This document shows positions 1,981 through 10,332 of a stretch of DNA of 64,000 nt, piece after piece. Source of the DNA: Alkalimarinus alittae (GTDB lineage: Bacteria; Pseudomonadota; Gammaproteobacteria; Pseudomonadales; Oleiphilaceae). The notes below the pieces were generated by a model. That model was not told the DNA's origin, searched no databases, and saw only the letters and a list, made by a program, of their open reading frames with translations. Position 1 is the stretch's first letter. Every line of letters begins with the position of its first letter. The stretch lies in assembly GCF_026016465.1 (NCBI RefSeq), contig NZ_CP100390.1, forward strand, positions 3,516,501-3,580,500, written 5' to 3'. Position numbers and translations under genes: made by a program.

Positions 1981-3237
1981 TCACTGACGAATATGCCCGT
2001 CACCAAACACCACATATTTCTGCGAGGTCAAACCATCAAGTCCAACAGGTCCTCGCGCATGGATTTTATCAGTGGAAATACCAATTTCAGCACCTAACCC
2101 ATACTCAAAACCATCAGCAAAACGGGTAGACGCATTAATCATGACCGAGCTTGAGTCAACGGCAGTAATAAACTTACGACCACGCGTGTAATTCTCAGTA
2201 ATAATAGAGTCGGTGTGATGAGAGCCGTATTTATTAATATGGTCAATCGCCTCATCCATGTCTGAAACAACTTTAACTGACAGTACTGGGGCTAAATATT
2301 CAGTCGACCAATCTTCTTCTGTTGCAGCGTTAATACCTGTCAGAATTCGCCTTGTCGCATCACAACCTCTCAACTCTACGCCTTCCTGCTCAAACTTCAC
2401 CGCAAGTGTTGGCAAAACAAACTCGGCAATGGCCTCATCAACAAGTAATGTCTCCATTGTGTTACAAGTACCGTATCGATGAGTTTTTGCATTAAAGGCG
2501 ACATTAACCGCTTTTTCTCGGTCTGCATCACGGTCAATAAATACATGGCAAATACCGTCTAAGTGCTTAATTACTGCTACTTTGGCATCTCGACTCACTC
2601 GCTCAATTAAGCCTTTACCGCCACGAGGAACAATAACATCGACATACTCTGGCATCGTAATCAGCTCGCCTACGGCTGCACGATCAGTTGTTTTAATCAC
2701 CTGCACTGCATTAATAGGTAGTCCTGCTTGAGATAGCCCTTGGCTAATACACGCCGCAACGGCTTGATTTGAATGAATCGCTTCTGATCCACCTCGCAAG
2801 ATCGTCGCATTGCCTGACTTAAGGCACAAACTGGCCGCTTCTACCGTAACATTTGGGCGAGACTCATAAATAATTCCGACTACACCTAAGGGCACACGCA
2901 TTTTGCCAACTTGAATACCAGAAGGCATATATTTCATATCATCAATAATGCCGACAGGATCAGGAAGAGATGCAACTTGTCGCAGCCCTTCAATCATGGT
3001 ATCGATACGTGCTGGCGTTAGCTCCAAACGATCAAGCATTGCCGAATCAAGGCCATTATTTCGTCCGTTTTCCAAGTCCAACTCATTCGCTTTAGCTAAT
3101 TTATCACGCGCCAGATCTAACGCTTCAGCCATCGCAATCAATGCACGATTTTTTGCTTCTGTACTCGCCTGAGCAATTAGAGCAGATGCCTGACGGGCCT
3201 TTTCGCCCACGTCTACCATGTATGCTTTTACATCCAT
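1981..3237 (-). CDS. proA: Gamma-glutamyl phosphate reductase ProA
   Basis: ProA reduces gamma-glutamyl phosphate with NADPH to glutamate semialdehyde, the second step of proline synthesis. The 418-residue protein belongs to the aldehyde dehydrogenase superfamily. The catalytic cysteine is Cys258, within the [13 protein letters not shown] motif, and the cofactor region [16 protein letters not shown] is intact. The C-terminal block [10 protein letters not shown] and the [11 protein letters not shown] motif near the end are typical. It heads the leftward proA-nadD-rsfS-rlmH-mrdA run and is divergent from the GGDEF-like gene at 3439, with about 200 bases between them. proB is not in the window. 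Confidence 0.97.
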
Positions 3238-3438: not shown

Positions 3439-4476
3439 ATGCCTCAAACACGCTTAAGCAACACCATACGGACTCGCTCATACCAGTATGCAGCGGCTAT
3501 AACCGCATTTTTAGCGCTAGCCGGTTTATTAGTAGGAAAGCTAGAAGGCGCTATCGTTGCCGCCGTTTTTTCTATCCTACTTATATTGAATAGCCTCTTC
3601 GAGAAACAACGATTATTAGAAAAAGATCCGCAAAAAAGCTTACGCCGCAGTTCTTGGACCCATATCACCCTACTATTTTTAGCTGCTGTATCACTGCTTA
3701 GCGCGACAAATAGCGAATACGCAGCCAGCCCATGGAGTTTTATTTTGCCTTTGTTATTGCTGTTCTTTTATCCGCTAAAAACAGCACTTATAGCGACCGC
3801 AATCTATAGCTTCTGCTTAGTGGTTATACTCACTCAGATAAGTGATTCGGCAGAAAAATTAGAGCTTCTGATAAATTACATGTTATGCCTTGCTCTTACA
3901 GCAGGCTTTGTTTACTTGAGAGAAATAAAAGATCAACAACTTAAACCTTTACGGCGGACCGACAATCTTACCCAAGCATCTATTAAAGAGCGGTTGAACG
4001 ATGATCTAGTCAAAGAAATTCAACGCAGTGAAAGAGAAGGTACCGAACTAACGGTGATGGCGCTGGCGATAGATGACCAAGGTTTTGATCATATAGACGC
4101 CGCCGACCACGACGTACTGCTCAGTAAACTAGGACATGTACTACACGAAAACCTTCGCGCCTTTGACAGTTATTATCGATGGAAGGATCACGAATTTTTA
4201 ATCGTATTTCCCTATACCAACACTCAAGAAGGGATGAAAACCGCTGAGAATCTGCGAGTCATAGCTAAAGACTCGCTGAGTGATGCCAACATGCCCATTA
4301 CCGTCAGTATTGGTGCTGCAAGCCTTAATGTAGGCGATAATGCTGATTCCCTGCTAAAAAAATCGCTATCAGCGCTTCAACAAGCACAAAGAAGAGGTCA
4401 AAACCGAACCCGCTCTTATGTTGACGCAGAGACTAATACAAGTAAAGTCAGAGCCGCTACAGACACGCTTGGCTAG
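3439..4476 (+). CDS. Membrane protein with degenerate GGDEF domain (copy 1)
   Basis: The 345-residue protein has five or six predicted membrane segments in the first 165 residues, then a cytoplasmic GGDEF-type domain (about 170-335). The GGDEF signature itself is replaced by KDHEF at residues 249-253, and the metal and substrate motifs around IDDQGFDHI are also poor, so diguanylate cyclase activity is unlikely. The inhibitory-site motif RxxD is kept as RAFD at 240-243, exactly five residues before KDHEF. That combination is known from c-di-GMP receptors such as PelD. It is followed 71 bases later by a paralogue; both share an L-x-N-x-x-R-T-x-S-Y start and a QEGM motif after the signature. Function as a c-di-GMP sensor is inference. 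Confidence 0.8.
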   Translation: MPQTRLSNTIRTRSYQYAAAITAFLALAGLLVGKLEGAIVAAVFSILLILNSLFEKQRLLEKDPQKSLRRSSWTHITLLFLAAVSLLSATNSEYAASPWSFILPLLLLFFYPLKTALIATAIYSFCLVVILTQISDSAEKLELLINYMLCLALTAGFVYLREIKDQQLKPLRRTDNLTQASIKERLNDDLVKEIQRSEREGTELTVMALAIDDQGFDHIDAADHDVLLSKLGHVLHENLRAFDSYYRWKDHEFLIVFPYTNTQEGMKTAENLRVIAKDSLSDANMPITVSIGAASLNVGDNADSLLKKSLSALQQAQRRGQNRTRSYVDAETNTSKVRAATDTLG

Positions 4477-4547
4477 CACGGCAAACAACATAAACCCCAA
4501 AAAATAATTAGTTACTAGTTCCATATTAAATAAAAGGCACAGAAAGG

Positions 4548-5531
4548 ATGACTGATTCCCAACTTAAGAACATGACAAGAACAACGTCTTATGGCTTAAC
4601 CGCCTTTTTTATGTTCTTTCTGGCTATTCAAAATTACCGCTATGGCTTTTATGAGTTAGTTTACACCGCCACCTTTCTAATTCCCCTTTTAGGGTTTGGT
4701 ATTGCTTATACCTACGCACAAAGATTCTTTGAAATTAAAGACCACGCACACCCTATATTGCTTGCAGTCATGGTGGTTTTAATTGCCTCAAATATTAATG
4801 AAACATCATCCAATGCAACGCTTTGGCTATATCCAATCGGCTTACTGAGTTATTTAGTGCTCCCTTTTCGAATGTCAAACGTATTCAATGCCGGTGTACT
4901 GATATCACTCACCTTCTTTATTATGATTCAGCAAGGGTTATTTAACAGTCTATCATTCTTCACTAGCTATCTTCTGATTAGTAGCGTTGCGAGTATTTTC
5001 GCTTACCTTCACCACCATAAAAATCGCAAGTTAATTGAGCTATCACTTCATGATCCACTGACAGGGGCTTACAATATGAAGCACCTTGACGACACGCTGA
5101 CCAAAGAAATTAGCCGCTCTCATGTCACCGGAAACACACTATCGTTAATCGCACTGAAAGTTGACTACTTTGACCAATTTACCGATGTTCATGGTAACAA
5201 TGCAGCAAAAGATTTAACCATCGAGCTTTCAGAAATGCTAGGCGGCATGATCAGAGCCGGAGATAGCCACTACTACGACGATAACAGTTTATTTTATATG
5301 CTTTTACCCAACACCCCCCAAGAAGGGATGCTGATCATGACTGAGCGCGTGCGCAGAACCGTAGAAGAAACTAAGTGGCAAACGATAGGCACCATGACCG
5401 TTAGCGTAGGTTGCACCACATCAACTGAAAAACCAACCACCGCCGAAAGCCTTTTAAAAGAAGTTCAATGTGCTTTGAGTGATGCAGAAGCCAACGGACA
5501 CAATAGAGTTAACCATTTCACCCAACAATGA
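4548..5531 (+). CDS. Membrane protein with degenerate GGDEF domain (copy 2)
   Basis: This 327-residue protein repeats the layout of its upstream neighbour: about six membrane segments to residue 155, then a GGDEF-type domain opening with LSLHDPLTGAYN, a good match to the usual DxLTGxxN entry motif. The GGDEF signature has become DNSLF (residues 245-249), so the active site has lost both glycines and the catalytic acid. The RxxD inhibitory site is kept as RAGD (236-239), five residues upstream. KVDYFDQF preserves a possible metal aspartate. Its stop codon overlaps the start of the DedA-PAP2 gene by four bases (ATGA), so translation of the two is probably coupled. A c-di-GMP-binding sensor is the best guess; catalysis is unlikely. 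Confidence 0.8.
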   Translation: MTDSQLKNMTRTTSYGLTAFFMFFLAIQNYRYGFYELVYTATFLIPLLGFGIAYTYAQRFFEIKDHAHPILLAVMVVLIASNINETSSNATLWLYPIGLLSYLVLPFRMSNVFNAGVLISLTFFIMIQQGLFNSLSFFTSYLLISSVASIFAYLHHHKNRKLIELSLHDPLTGAYNMKHLDDTLTKEISRSHVTGNTLSLIALKVDYFDQFTDVHGNNAAKDLTIELSEMLGGMIRAGDSHYYDDNSLFYMLLPNTPQEGMLIMTERVRRTVEETKWQTIGTMTVSVGCTTSTEKPTTAESLLKEVQCALSDAEANGHNRVNHFTQQ

Positions 5532-6988
5532 ACTTATCTGACATTCAACCCCTAATAAATGGGCTCCAAGCGCACCCTAACTGGGTGGCATTTGCTATTT
5601 TTAGTATTTCCTTTGTCGAGTCTCTGGCCGTTGCAGGCGTTATCGTACCTGGCGTCATGTTGCTATTTATGGTGGCGGCTGTTGCTGGTGGAGGGGCGCT
5701 ATCGATAGAGGCATCTTTATTTTGGGCTTTTGCAGGCGCCGTTTCTGGTGACGGTCTGAGTTTCTTTCTCGGACGTTACTTTAAAGAATCTATTGCAACA
5801 GTCTGGCCTGTCCGCCGGTATCCTCAACTGCTTGATAGTGGAACACGTTTTTTTGATAAGCACGGGGGTAAAAGCGTACTAATTGGCCGTTTTGTAGGCC
5901 CTATTCGCCCTATCTTGCCCATGATTGCAGGCATGCTTCAAATGCCGCCCAAAAAATTCTTTATATTTAATATTGTTTCTGCCATTGGCTGGGCACCTAT
6001 TTATATATTGCCAGGCTTTCTTGTAGGTGCTTCAATATCTCTCGATATTGAATTACCACCGCATTTTTACCCTGTACTCCTTACCGCTTTAGGTGTGCTA
6101 TCTGCGACATACATATTATTTGTTCGCCTCCAGTGGGGGCTTCAGCAAAAAGGCAGGAGCTACAATTATATTAAGCGGATACTCATGCAATACCACTTTA
6201 CACAGCAGGTATGGAAAGGGTTGTCTAACAGAAGAGCCGATGGAGGAGAGTTTCCACTACCTTCATTGGTTCTTGCACTAATGACTCTAACGCTATTTAT
6301 TTTAGTCGCACAAGCGGTAAGCTACACCCACTGGTTTGATGTAATCAACCACCAGACATCAACGTTTTTTTCATTGCTCAGAAACCCTCTATACGACCCG
6401 CTGGTGATTGTGATCACCATGCTGGGAGACCCAAAGGTCTATTATATTGCGTTTCCTATCTTTGTGTCGTTATTACTCTTTCGTGGCTTCTACGCTGCAG
6501 CGACCCATATATCGCTAGCCGGCATTGCAACCGCCCTAATCACCCATGGACTAAAAGCATACTTTGATATTGCACGCCCCGACTTAGTCATCAATGGCCC
6601 CGCGTCAGCAGCCTTCCCTAGCGGTCACACTAGCGGCTCTGTCGTTTTTCTAGGGCTACTCGCGGCGTTTATTGCTCAAGAGATTCAGCAAAAGAAACGC
6701 TGGATGATTTACAGCCTCTTTAGTATACCGATGCTATTGATTGGCCTTAGTCGATTGTATCTAGGGGTTCACTGGGCAAGTGATATCGTTGGGGGCTTAC
6801 TGCTAGGCTTATGCATCTGCGCGTTGACACGAGTCAGCTATAGTCGTTACGACCGACAAGCGCTCACGCTAGATATGTTTACGATTTTGGCCGTCGGGCT
6901 TTGGGCCACATCTACAGTATTGTATATATGGCTAGGGTTACCTGAGGCGCTTTCTAACTATCAACCACTGTCTAACGTAAAACCTTAA
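5528..6988 (+). CDS. DedA-PAP2 fusion membrane protein
   Basis: The 486-residue integral membrane protein joins two families. Residues about 1-215 are DedA-like (now linked to lipid flipping, including undecaprenyl phosphate recycling): FVESLAVAGVIVPG near the start and the GRFVGPIRPILPMIAG motif. Residues about 240-470 are a PAP2 phosphatase with all three motifs intact: K343-x6-R350-P351, P364-S-G-H367-T and S408-R409-x5-H415-x3-D419. A substrate such as undecaprenyl pyrophosphate or phosphatidic acid fits; which one cannot be told. The start codon overlaps the stop of the preceding GGDEF-like gene, and its end is one base from the convergent LON-domain gene, leaving no room for a terminator. 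Confidence 0.9.
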   Translation: MNLSDIQPLINGLQAHPNWVAFAIFSISFVESLAVAGVIVPGVMLLFMVAAVAGGGALSIEASLFWAFAGAVSGDGLSFFLGRYFKESIATVWPVRRYPQLLDSGTRFFDKHGGKSVLIGRFVGPIRPILPMIAGMLQMPPKKFFIFNIVSAIGWAPIYILPGFLVGASISLDIELPPHFYPVLLTALGVLSATYILFVRLQWGLQQKGRSYNYIKRILMQYHFTQQVWKGLSNRRADGGEFPLPSLVLALMTLTLFILVAQAVSYTHWFDVINHQTSTFFSLLRNPLYDPLVIVITMLGDPKVYYIAFPIFVSLLLFRGFYAAATHISLAGIATALITHGLKAYFDIARPDLVINGPASAAFPSGHTSGSVVFLGLLAAFIAQEIQQKKRWMIYSLFSIPMLLIGLSRLYLGVHWASDIVGGLLLGLCICALTRVSYSRYDRQALTLDMFTILAVGLWATSTVLYIWLGLPEALSNYQPLSNVKP

Positions 6989-9054: not shown

Positions 9055-10332
9055 TTATTCGCTCGACAAACTTGCAGGCCCTAAGACCTGTTGAATCTCT
9101 TCAATTTTATGTCGTGCCTCTACCATCACCTTTAAACTCCGCTCTGGCGTCAAACCACCGCTTGCCAATTTTCGAAATGCAGGCACTTTATTAAAAGGAG
9201 GTAAGTTATTTCGTTTAGGGCAGCTAATTAAGGCATGCATCTGCGCAACAATAATAATATCAGTATAACTCGGCTCATCACGCCCAGAATCAAAGCCCCA
9301 CTCTTCTGCTTTCGCCACAACTTCAATTAAGTCACTTGGGAAGCCCCACTGCTCAAGAATAGTGCAGCCAATTTCGCCTCTTAATTCATCAATCGCACCA
9401 TTGAGTGCTTTTTCATCAGCATAAAGTTCAGGGAAGTTTTCAGCGTAAGTAATAACCGGAATTGCACCAATATCATGAATCAAACCCGCAAGCATCGCAT
9501 GATCTTTATTTAATCCTGGCGTCTGCTCGGCGAGTACGTATGCAATCGAAGCAACTTCTCGCGAGTGTTGCCACAATTCAGACATTGCCTGTTTTAGCTC
9601 GGGTTTCTTACTCCTAAATAGCTCCCTCATGGAAAATACGGTCACTAACTGCTGAGTCGTTTGTATCCCCAACCGCACAACCGCATCTCGACAAGAAGAC
9701 ACTTCATTAAACCCCCTATATAAAGGGCTATTACATGATTTTATCAGCTTAACCGTCATGGCTGGATCAGTATTTACAACCTTTGAAATATCATCTGCGG
9801 AGGTTTCATTTTTACCGGCTATTTGGCGAATACGATAAGCAACGTCAGGTAAACTAGGCAATGTAAAATTATTAGATTTTAAGTCATGATAAAAACTCAT
9901 CAATACTTTAAAGGCGCCCTCAACATCTTCAGCGTCACCATCATCAAAACCTTCATCTGCCTCAAAGTTATGTACTGGCGCTTGCTTGAGTAAAATATTC
10001 AGTACATCTTTCTCAATTATCAGAAAATCAACGTCTGTCACCGCTTTAACGGTGTATTGCCGTGGCTGTAAGTGTGCAATTGCAGCATCCGCTTGCTCTG
10101 TGCCTGCGTCAATCTCTCTAGTGCGACCATCTGGGGCTTCTAATTCAATTTTGCCATTCAAAAGAAAATAGTCATGATGATCAAACGTTCCCCGCTCAAA
10201 AACGACCTTTTTCTTTTTAAAGGAAGAGAAGTGGGCTTTATGCGCAAGCAGTATCCGCTGATTTTCGGACAACCTATCGAGAGGTCGAAATTTTTTTAAC
10301 GCGTCAGCCGTAATTTCGATCGAAGCATGCAT
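9055..10332 (-). CDS. HDOD-domain regulator with N-terminal cNMP-like domain
   Basis: The 425-residue protein combines an N-terminal jelly-roll like that of cyclic-nucleotide-binding domains (about 15-120: LSENQRILLAHKAHFSSF, then YFLLNGKIELEA) with an HDOD domain (about 145-360: LPSLPDVAYRIRQI, AMTVKLIKSCNSPLYRG, LAGLIHDIGAIPVITYAE). HDOD is a catalytically dead relative of HD phosphohydrolases, used in signalling. The phosphate-binding cassette of the cNMP fold is not recognisable where GE-x-RxAT would be expected (IAHLQPRQYTVKAV), so cAMP binding is doubtful. It stands alone, convergent with the channel gene and divergent from ilvD. No specific partner can be named. Confidence 0.85.
   Translation of the reverse strand: MHASIEITADALKKFRPLDRLSENQRILLAHKAHFSSFKKKKVVFERGTFDHHDYFLLNGKIELEAPDGRTREIDAGTEQADAAIAHLQPRQYTVKAVTDVDFLIIEKDVLNILLKQAPVHNFEADEGFDDGDAEDVEGAFKVLMSFYHDLKSNNFTLPSLPDVAYRIRQIAGKNETSADDISKVVNTDPAMTVKLIKSCNSPLYRGFNEVSSCRDAVVRLGIQTTQQLVTVFSMRELFRSKKPELKQAMSELWQHSREVASIAYVLAEQTPGLNKDHAMLAGLIHDIGAIPVITYAENFPELYADEKALNGAIDELRGEIGCTILEQWGFPSDLIEVVAKAEEWGFDSGRDEPSYTDIIIVAQMHALISCPKRNNLPPFNKVPAFRKLASGGLTPERSLKVMVEARHKIEEIQQVLGPASLSSE

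Follow-up and report, generated by a model that had tools for sequence, protein, structure and literature searches.

A tandem pair of degenerate GGDEF membrane proteins as a candidate c-di-GMP receptor

Two neighbouring genes in the 64,000-nt stretch of Alkalimarinus alittae DNA analysed here (the window) encode membrane proteins, A and B, with a C-terminal domain of the diguanylate cyclase type. In both proteins the catalytic GGDEF motif has been replaced (KDHEF in A, DNSLF in B) and the RxxD motif of the primary I-site is still present (RAFD in A, RAGD in B), and this raises the question of what such proteins do. A preliminary description had reported these motifs, with exactly five residues between RAFD and KDHEF in A and between RAGD and DNSLF in B, all of which proved exact, and had read the pair as c-di-GMP receptors. 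Our comparative analysis suggests, with a probability of about 0.6, that A and B, dead relatives of cyclases, serve as a receptor for c-di-GMP in the membrane, with an A:B complex as the likeliest form. Features of the locus are collected in Table 1.

Table 1. Features of the A-B locus, numbered from the first base of the window
Feature	Position	Strand	Basis
proA, divergent neighbour anchoring the locus	1981..3237	-	ORF, synteny
ORF A, 345 aa, membrane domain and degenerate GGDEF domain	3439..4476	+	ORF and Pfam
A membrane domain, MASE6-like, about residues 17-165	3487..3933	+	Pfam, hydrophobicity, model
A GGDEF-fold domain, residues 174-323	3958..4407	+	Pfam GGDEF 58 bits
A helix-A arginines R196 and R199, candidate secondary I-site	4024..4035	+	alignment, conservation
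A primary I-site RAFD 240-243 (R240, D243)	4156..4167	+	motif, conservation
A degenerate catalytic motif KDHEF 249-253	4183..4197	+	motif
ORF B, 327 aa, membrane domain and degenerate GGDEF domain	4548..5531	+	ORF and Pfam
B membrane domain, homologous to the one in A, about residues 13-160	4584..5027	+	profile comparison, model
B GGDEF-fold domain, residues 167-320	5046..5507	+	Pfam GGDEF 74.8 bits
B R190, PleD R313 equivalent	5115..5117	+	gap-free PleD alignment, conservation
B primary I-site RAGD 236-239 (R236, D239)	5253..5264	+	motif, conservation, PleD alignment
B degenerate catalytic motif DNSLF 245-249	5280..5294	+	motif
B R267, PleD R390 equivalent	5346..5348	+	PleD alignment, conservation
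DedA (VTT)-PAP2 fusion, operon neighbour of B, functional link uncertain	5528..6988	+	Pfam; start overlaps B stop by 4 bp

The two genes lie on the plus strand, separated by 71 bp, and both products match the Pfam GGDEF family (PF00990) above its curated cut-off of 23.8 bits. A and B share 29% identity over residues 2-330, and a profile-profile comparison pairs their N-terminal membrane domains with a probability of 97.4 (E 9e-12, 159 columns); judged by these comparisons, A and B are paralogues along their length, in agreement with the adjacent membrane paralogues described beforehand. Against Pfam MASE6 (PF20966, curated cut-off 27.4 bits), A of the window scores 26.8 bits, just below the cut-off, two A relatives pass it (30.1 and 28.7 bits) and another A reaches 16.9, with scores of 10 for B of the window and 17.6 and 14.3 for B relatives. 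A survey of open-licence literature on MASE6 returned unrelated work only. The membrane domain of A has five hydrophobic segments, and six helices in its low-confidence model. AlphaFold models of the two proteins from 6-sequence alignments were both of low confidence (pLDDT 66 and 59, pTM 0.41 and 0.39). Modelling of the GGDEF domains had been proposed earlier as a check; with Foldseek, the low-confidence B model found only the expected GGDEF structures among the 50 matches listed. By name, the nearest matches of ORF B belong to metagenome assemblies that carry the label Oleiphilaceae (82% identity) or Hahellaceae (68%).

Searching with either protein at E<=1e-25 in 38 genomes, i.e. the source genome and its nearest relatives, we found A in 24 and B in 25, and the 13 genomes of other families among the 38 gave zero matches to A or B at this threshold. 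With a profile of the B membrane domain, 30 of 293 genomes of the order were matched (13 of family f1, nine of them new; 9 of f206; and 8 singles), together with two of 274 genomes of the class, namely the source genome and one weak match. A lies beside B in all f1 (13/13) and f206 (9/9) loci from the order-wide search. Moreover, in one genome of a third family (f7, G030) a diverged A-B pair fills the gap between proA and DedA-PAP2, and a second f7 genome (G342) also holds the pair; the order-wide profile search missed the pair present in G030, so that absences elsewhere are soft. The gene proA adjoins A in 21/24 f1 loci (two loci from a single genus lack it and a contig end intervenes in one), in 9/9 f206 loci and in both f7 genomes, so the search for the tandem in related genomes, suggested at the outset, located it beside proA in three families. 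The 8 order singles and the weak class match are of another kind: 6/9 have RxxD together with GG(D/E)EF and look active, the motif being unresolved in the other three. A and B were adjacent wherever checked in f1, f206 and f7 loci, and on these comparisons the A-B tandem is a conserved, ancient locus of three families of the order. One genome of the same family encodes, apart from its tandem, a second and solitary B-like protein with 26% identity (L058, G012:C1:355052-355924).

We built a tree from 33 A and 34 B sequences with 4 outgroup proteins, without f7 and nine later f1 rows; A forms one clade in it (99/98) and B another (99/93). Each clade holds f1 and f206 members, hence the duplication predates the divergence of these two families. 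The preliminary description had offered a heteromeric sensor or a diverged duplication; the duplication stands, whereas the choice between the two does not, as the copies have been kept side by side.

Conservation was read from 44 A (33 f1, 9 f206, 2 f7) and 45 B sequences (34 f1, 9 f206, 2 f7), with G010 out of the A count because its A is interrupted by a contig end. These rows are not all independent, as both proteins are the same in two of the f206 genomes. The Arg and Asp of RxxD are invariant (44/44 A, 45/45 B) and the letters in between vary; conservation among orthologues was one of the points on which the receptor reading had been made to depend, and on this point the reading held. 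From residue 165 onward, they make up two of the six invariant columns of A (E193, R199, R240, D243, P258 and D300; 44 rows) and two of the nine of B (L184, E187, R190, R236, D239, L253, P254, E266 and W277; 45 rows). The canonical motif [GSA]G[DE]EF occurs in 0/42 A and 0/43 B rows, i.e. those collected before f7 was added, and the two added f7 rows likewise lack a canonical GGDEF motif, which bears out the proposed loss of the catalytic motif. Entropies from the same 42 A and 43 B rows, f7 left out, are 2.1-2.81 bits (A) and 2.21-2.95 bits (B) for columns 1-4 of the catalytic motif, above the domain means of 1.77 and 1.78, and column five (F) is conserved (0.16 in A, 0.6 in B). In the comparison proposed beforehand, RxxD is therefore more conserved than GGDEF.

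The metal position points the same way in B, where it is a variable column; in A the profile alignment places A210 there (mostly A or G), and a BLAST of A against PleD, with its register shifted by two, could put Asp212 on the PleD metal Asp327, so that loss of the metal Asp is less certain for A than for B. The combination of an active cyclase, GG(D/E)EF or a close variant plus the metal Asp, was found in neither the 42 A nor the 43 B sequences. The f7 A (L182:4145-5074) has no Pfam GGDEF match at E<=1 and keeps RPFD and both helix-A arginines, and the f7 B is still matched by Pfam GGDEF. A and B are, on sequence grounds, probably catalytically dead relatives of diguanylate cyclases. That they are pseudogene-like remnants, or cyclases still weakly active, is hardly credible: rare non-canonical motifs are reportedly active, e.g. 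VCA0965 with AGDEF, and the one BLAST register that brings Asp212 onto the metal position would suit some activity in A, but the profile alignment and the variable column of B speak against it, and remnants would not be expected to persist as ORFs across three families with invariant I-sites.

How informative an invariant RxxD is depends on how often the motif occurs in other GGDEF domains of the same genome. With the one domain that is divided over two matches counted once, the 56 GGDEF matches of this 4.25-Mb single-contig genome amount to 55 domains, 53 of them besides A and B. Canonical [GSA]G[DE]EF domains account for 38/53 and have RxxD in 31/38; the other degenerate domains (15/53) have it in 4/15, a count in which 3 of the 15 carry long inserts at the motif region and are possibly misaligned. 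Hence the fold does not force RxxD. Active domains have commonly inherited the motif and dead ones have mostly lost it, so that finding it invariant in A and B is informative. These numbers bear on the improbable alternative that RxxD and the helix-A arginines persist because folding, or salt bridges joining A to B, requires them, and not because they hold a nucleotide. Invariant charged residues can serve an interface, and invariant residues outside the I-site do exist (E193 and D300 in A; E187, E266 and W277 in B), but 7/38 canonical and 11/15 other degenerate domains do without RxxD, i.e. the fold needs none, and known ligand-contacting positions lie within the invariant set.

The four other degenerate domains with RxxD have the motifs SDKRI, DDERF, SESQF and SSDEF, and are found at L179 (G000:C1:1385147-1385587), L175 (4193265-4193720), L180 (1464194-1464607) and L156 (564738-565202). 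L179, where the three arginines of the secondary site are likewise all present, is a further candidate receptor.

We compared the arginines of the secondary site with those of PleD. The alignment of B to PleD covers 92 residues with zero gaps and equates R190 with R313, R236 with R359, D239 with D362 and R267 with R390. In A, the profile alignment and equal spacing put R196 at the PleD R313 position and R199 three residues further, which we take to be the position of WspR R198; the BLAST of A against PleD begins past helix A and is two off in register, thus this mapping is less certain than that of B. R196 is present in 43/44 A and R199 in 44/44, and at the PleD R390 position A of the window has N271, with Arg in 4/44. 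In B, R190 is present in 45/45, R267 is kept in 43/45 and replaced by Lys in 2/45 (both f7 rows), and the position equivalent to R199 is Arg in 1/45. For the 38 canonical domains of the genome, Arg occurs at the R313-, R199- and R390-type positions in 13, 32 and 17, respectively. On these alignments, A has the primary site and two helix-A arginines and has lost the R390 equivalent, and B has the full PleD-like set of I-site residues and has lost the R199 equivalent. In PleD, the arginine that the GGDEF domain contributes to the secondary I-site is R313 (PMC8457831), and the c-di-GMP dimer is buttressed by R390 (PMC3838380). The receptor reading of the preliminary description is thus supported by comparative conservation of the primary site, with secondary-site arginines kept as well, though unequally in A and B.

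Unequal sites could also mean that only B binds c-di-GMP and that A is a structural or regulatory partner which no longer binds. B has the primary site and the R313 and R390 equivalents, whereas A lacks the last of these, and A drifts further, the f7 A being unseen by the Pfam GGDEF model that sees the f7 B. We consider this reading rather unlikely, because none of the 44 A sequences departs from R240, D243 or R199, which is hard to explain if the site is unused. In a receptor formed by both proteins, the arrangement may follow product-inhibited PleD, in which a c-di-GMP dimer cross-links the primary site (Ip) of one GGDEF domain to the secondary site (Is) of its neighbour (PMC8457831). An intercalated c-di-GMP dimer would sit on RxxD of one domain and on the helix-A arginines of the partner, as in PleD, so that high c-di-GMP would lock the two pseudo-cyclase domains together; the short linker could then relay the change at the clamp to the membrane parts of A and B and so shift them. 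A stronger version is that the pair is an obligate two-gene receptor, in which two dead paralogues each hold a part of what was the I-site of a cyclase dimer and the c-di-GMP dimer clamps A to B. This version derives from the R199-type Arg being kept only by A and the R390-type Arg only by B, and we hold it tentatively, as possible though doubtful.

As for the ligand, c-di-GMP is likely, since residues of the c-di-GMP site are kept and 38 canonical GGDEF domains are encoded in the genome. Specificity of the site is not readable from sequence, and PleD has been solved with (p)ppGpp in addition to c-di-GMP, so another guanine nucleotide or dinucleotide, e.g. ppGpp or cGAMP, might be bound instead; given the same two observations, we regard this as very unlikely.

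A DedA-PAP2 gene follows B on the same strand in 21/24 f1 loci and also in f7 G030. In f206, a DedA-only gene is nearby in 6/9 loci, directly after B in one. PAP2-fused DedA proteins have been proposed (PMC10127716, PMC12893004) to be carrier-lipid flippases with a phosphatase, which makes a link to envelope polymer supply plausible, and we treat DedA-PAP2 (predicted carrier-lipid flippase and phosphatase) as a candidate output partner of A and B only. It was rejected as a proven output, as three f1 genomes (G012, G016 and G023; G016 is 88% complete) keep A and B with zero DedA-PAP2 match at E<=1e-10, and DedA stands directly beside proA, divergent and too close to leave space for the pair, in 5/20 genomes and likewise in 6/29 proA loci. 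The proA-DedA neighbourhood thus occurs without the pair, and A and B look inserted into it. In the open-licence literature we found no DedA-GGDEF-undecaprenyl phosphate link and no paper on a GGDEF locus with proA and nadD, and for degenerate GGDEF proteins in Marinobacter it yielded a review only.

In three of the other f206 loci checked, a gene of the leucine carboxyl methyltransferase type (Pfam LCM) comes after B, in between, and runs in the opposite direction (L118:8855-9763, L122:8713-9675 and L120:5765-6757). A few genes downstream of the pair, positions 9055-10332 of the window encode a cyclic-nucleotide-binding domain fused to HDOD, and the HDOD match recurs in many same-family loci.

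For this locus, which belongs to bacteria rich in c-di-GMP enzymes, the annotation 'diguanylate cyclase' is probably wrong. Two dead cyclases, long preserved together and with unequal site residues, would show how an enzyme's feedback site becomes a dedicated sensor, and if the divided site is real, what was product inhibition in an enzyme would now act purely as a switch in the membrane. No inactive-GGDEF heterodimer with a c-di-GMP I-site was found in the open-licence literature.

Of the systems described so far, PelD (Pseudomonas aeruginosa, Bacillus cereus) resembles A and B in having membrane helices, a dead GGDEF domain and RxxD, and its binding needs RxxD plus a further Arg (PMC2170427, PMC7112168, PMC8461298); R367A, D370A and R402A each abolish c-di-GMP binding (PMC2170427). 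We infer that PelD R402 is the equivalent of PleD R390. PelD has a GAF domain and is encoded in the pel polysaccharide operon, whereas A and B are two paralogues without GAF. The identification of A and B as PelD was rejected: the PelD_GGDEF model (PF16963) had zero match to the window proteins at E<=10 and reached 12.8-13.8 bits in three relatives, below its cut-off of 27. PelD was not among the PDB profile matches at E<=0.001, which counts against the receptor reading. YdaK of Bacillus, likened here by description and not by sequence, also joins transmembrane regions to a dead GGDEF domain and has Ip and Is (PMC9800504), but it is a single protein of an exopolysaccharide operon. YfiN is a caution: according to PMC3838380, it keeps RxxD, has lost the secondary site and its HAMP-GGDEF part does not bind c-di-GMP, so RxxD alone would be no proof of binding. 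The missing R390-type Arg of A counts against the receptor reading in this light, but A and B keep secondary-site arginines too, in unequal sets. Like A (N271), YfiN has Asn at the PleD R390 position; in the same source it is an active cyclase that has lost the helix-A arginine, which A keeps. PleD, to which B aligns without gaps, and WspR are active homodimeric enzymes, whereas A and B are different proteins and both, as judged from their motifs, inactive. Degenerate-GGDEF receptors are already known as single proteins (PelD, YdaK), and the novel part of this locus would be the divided site.
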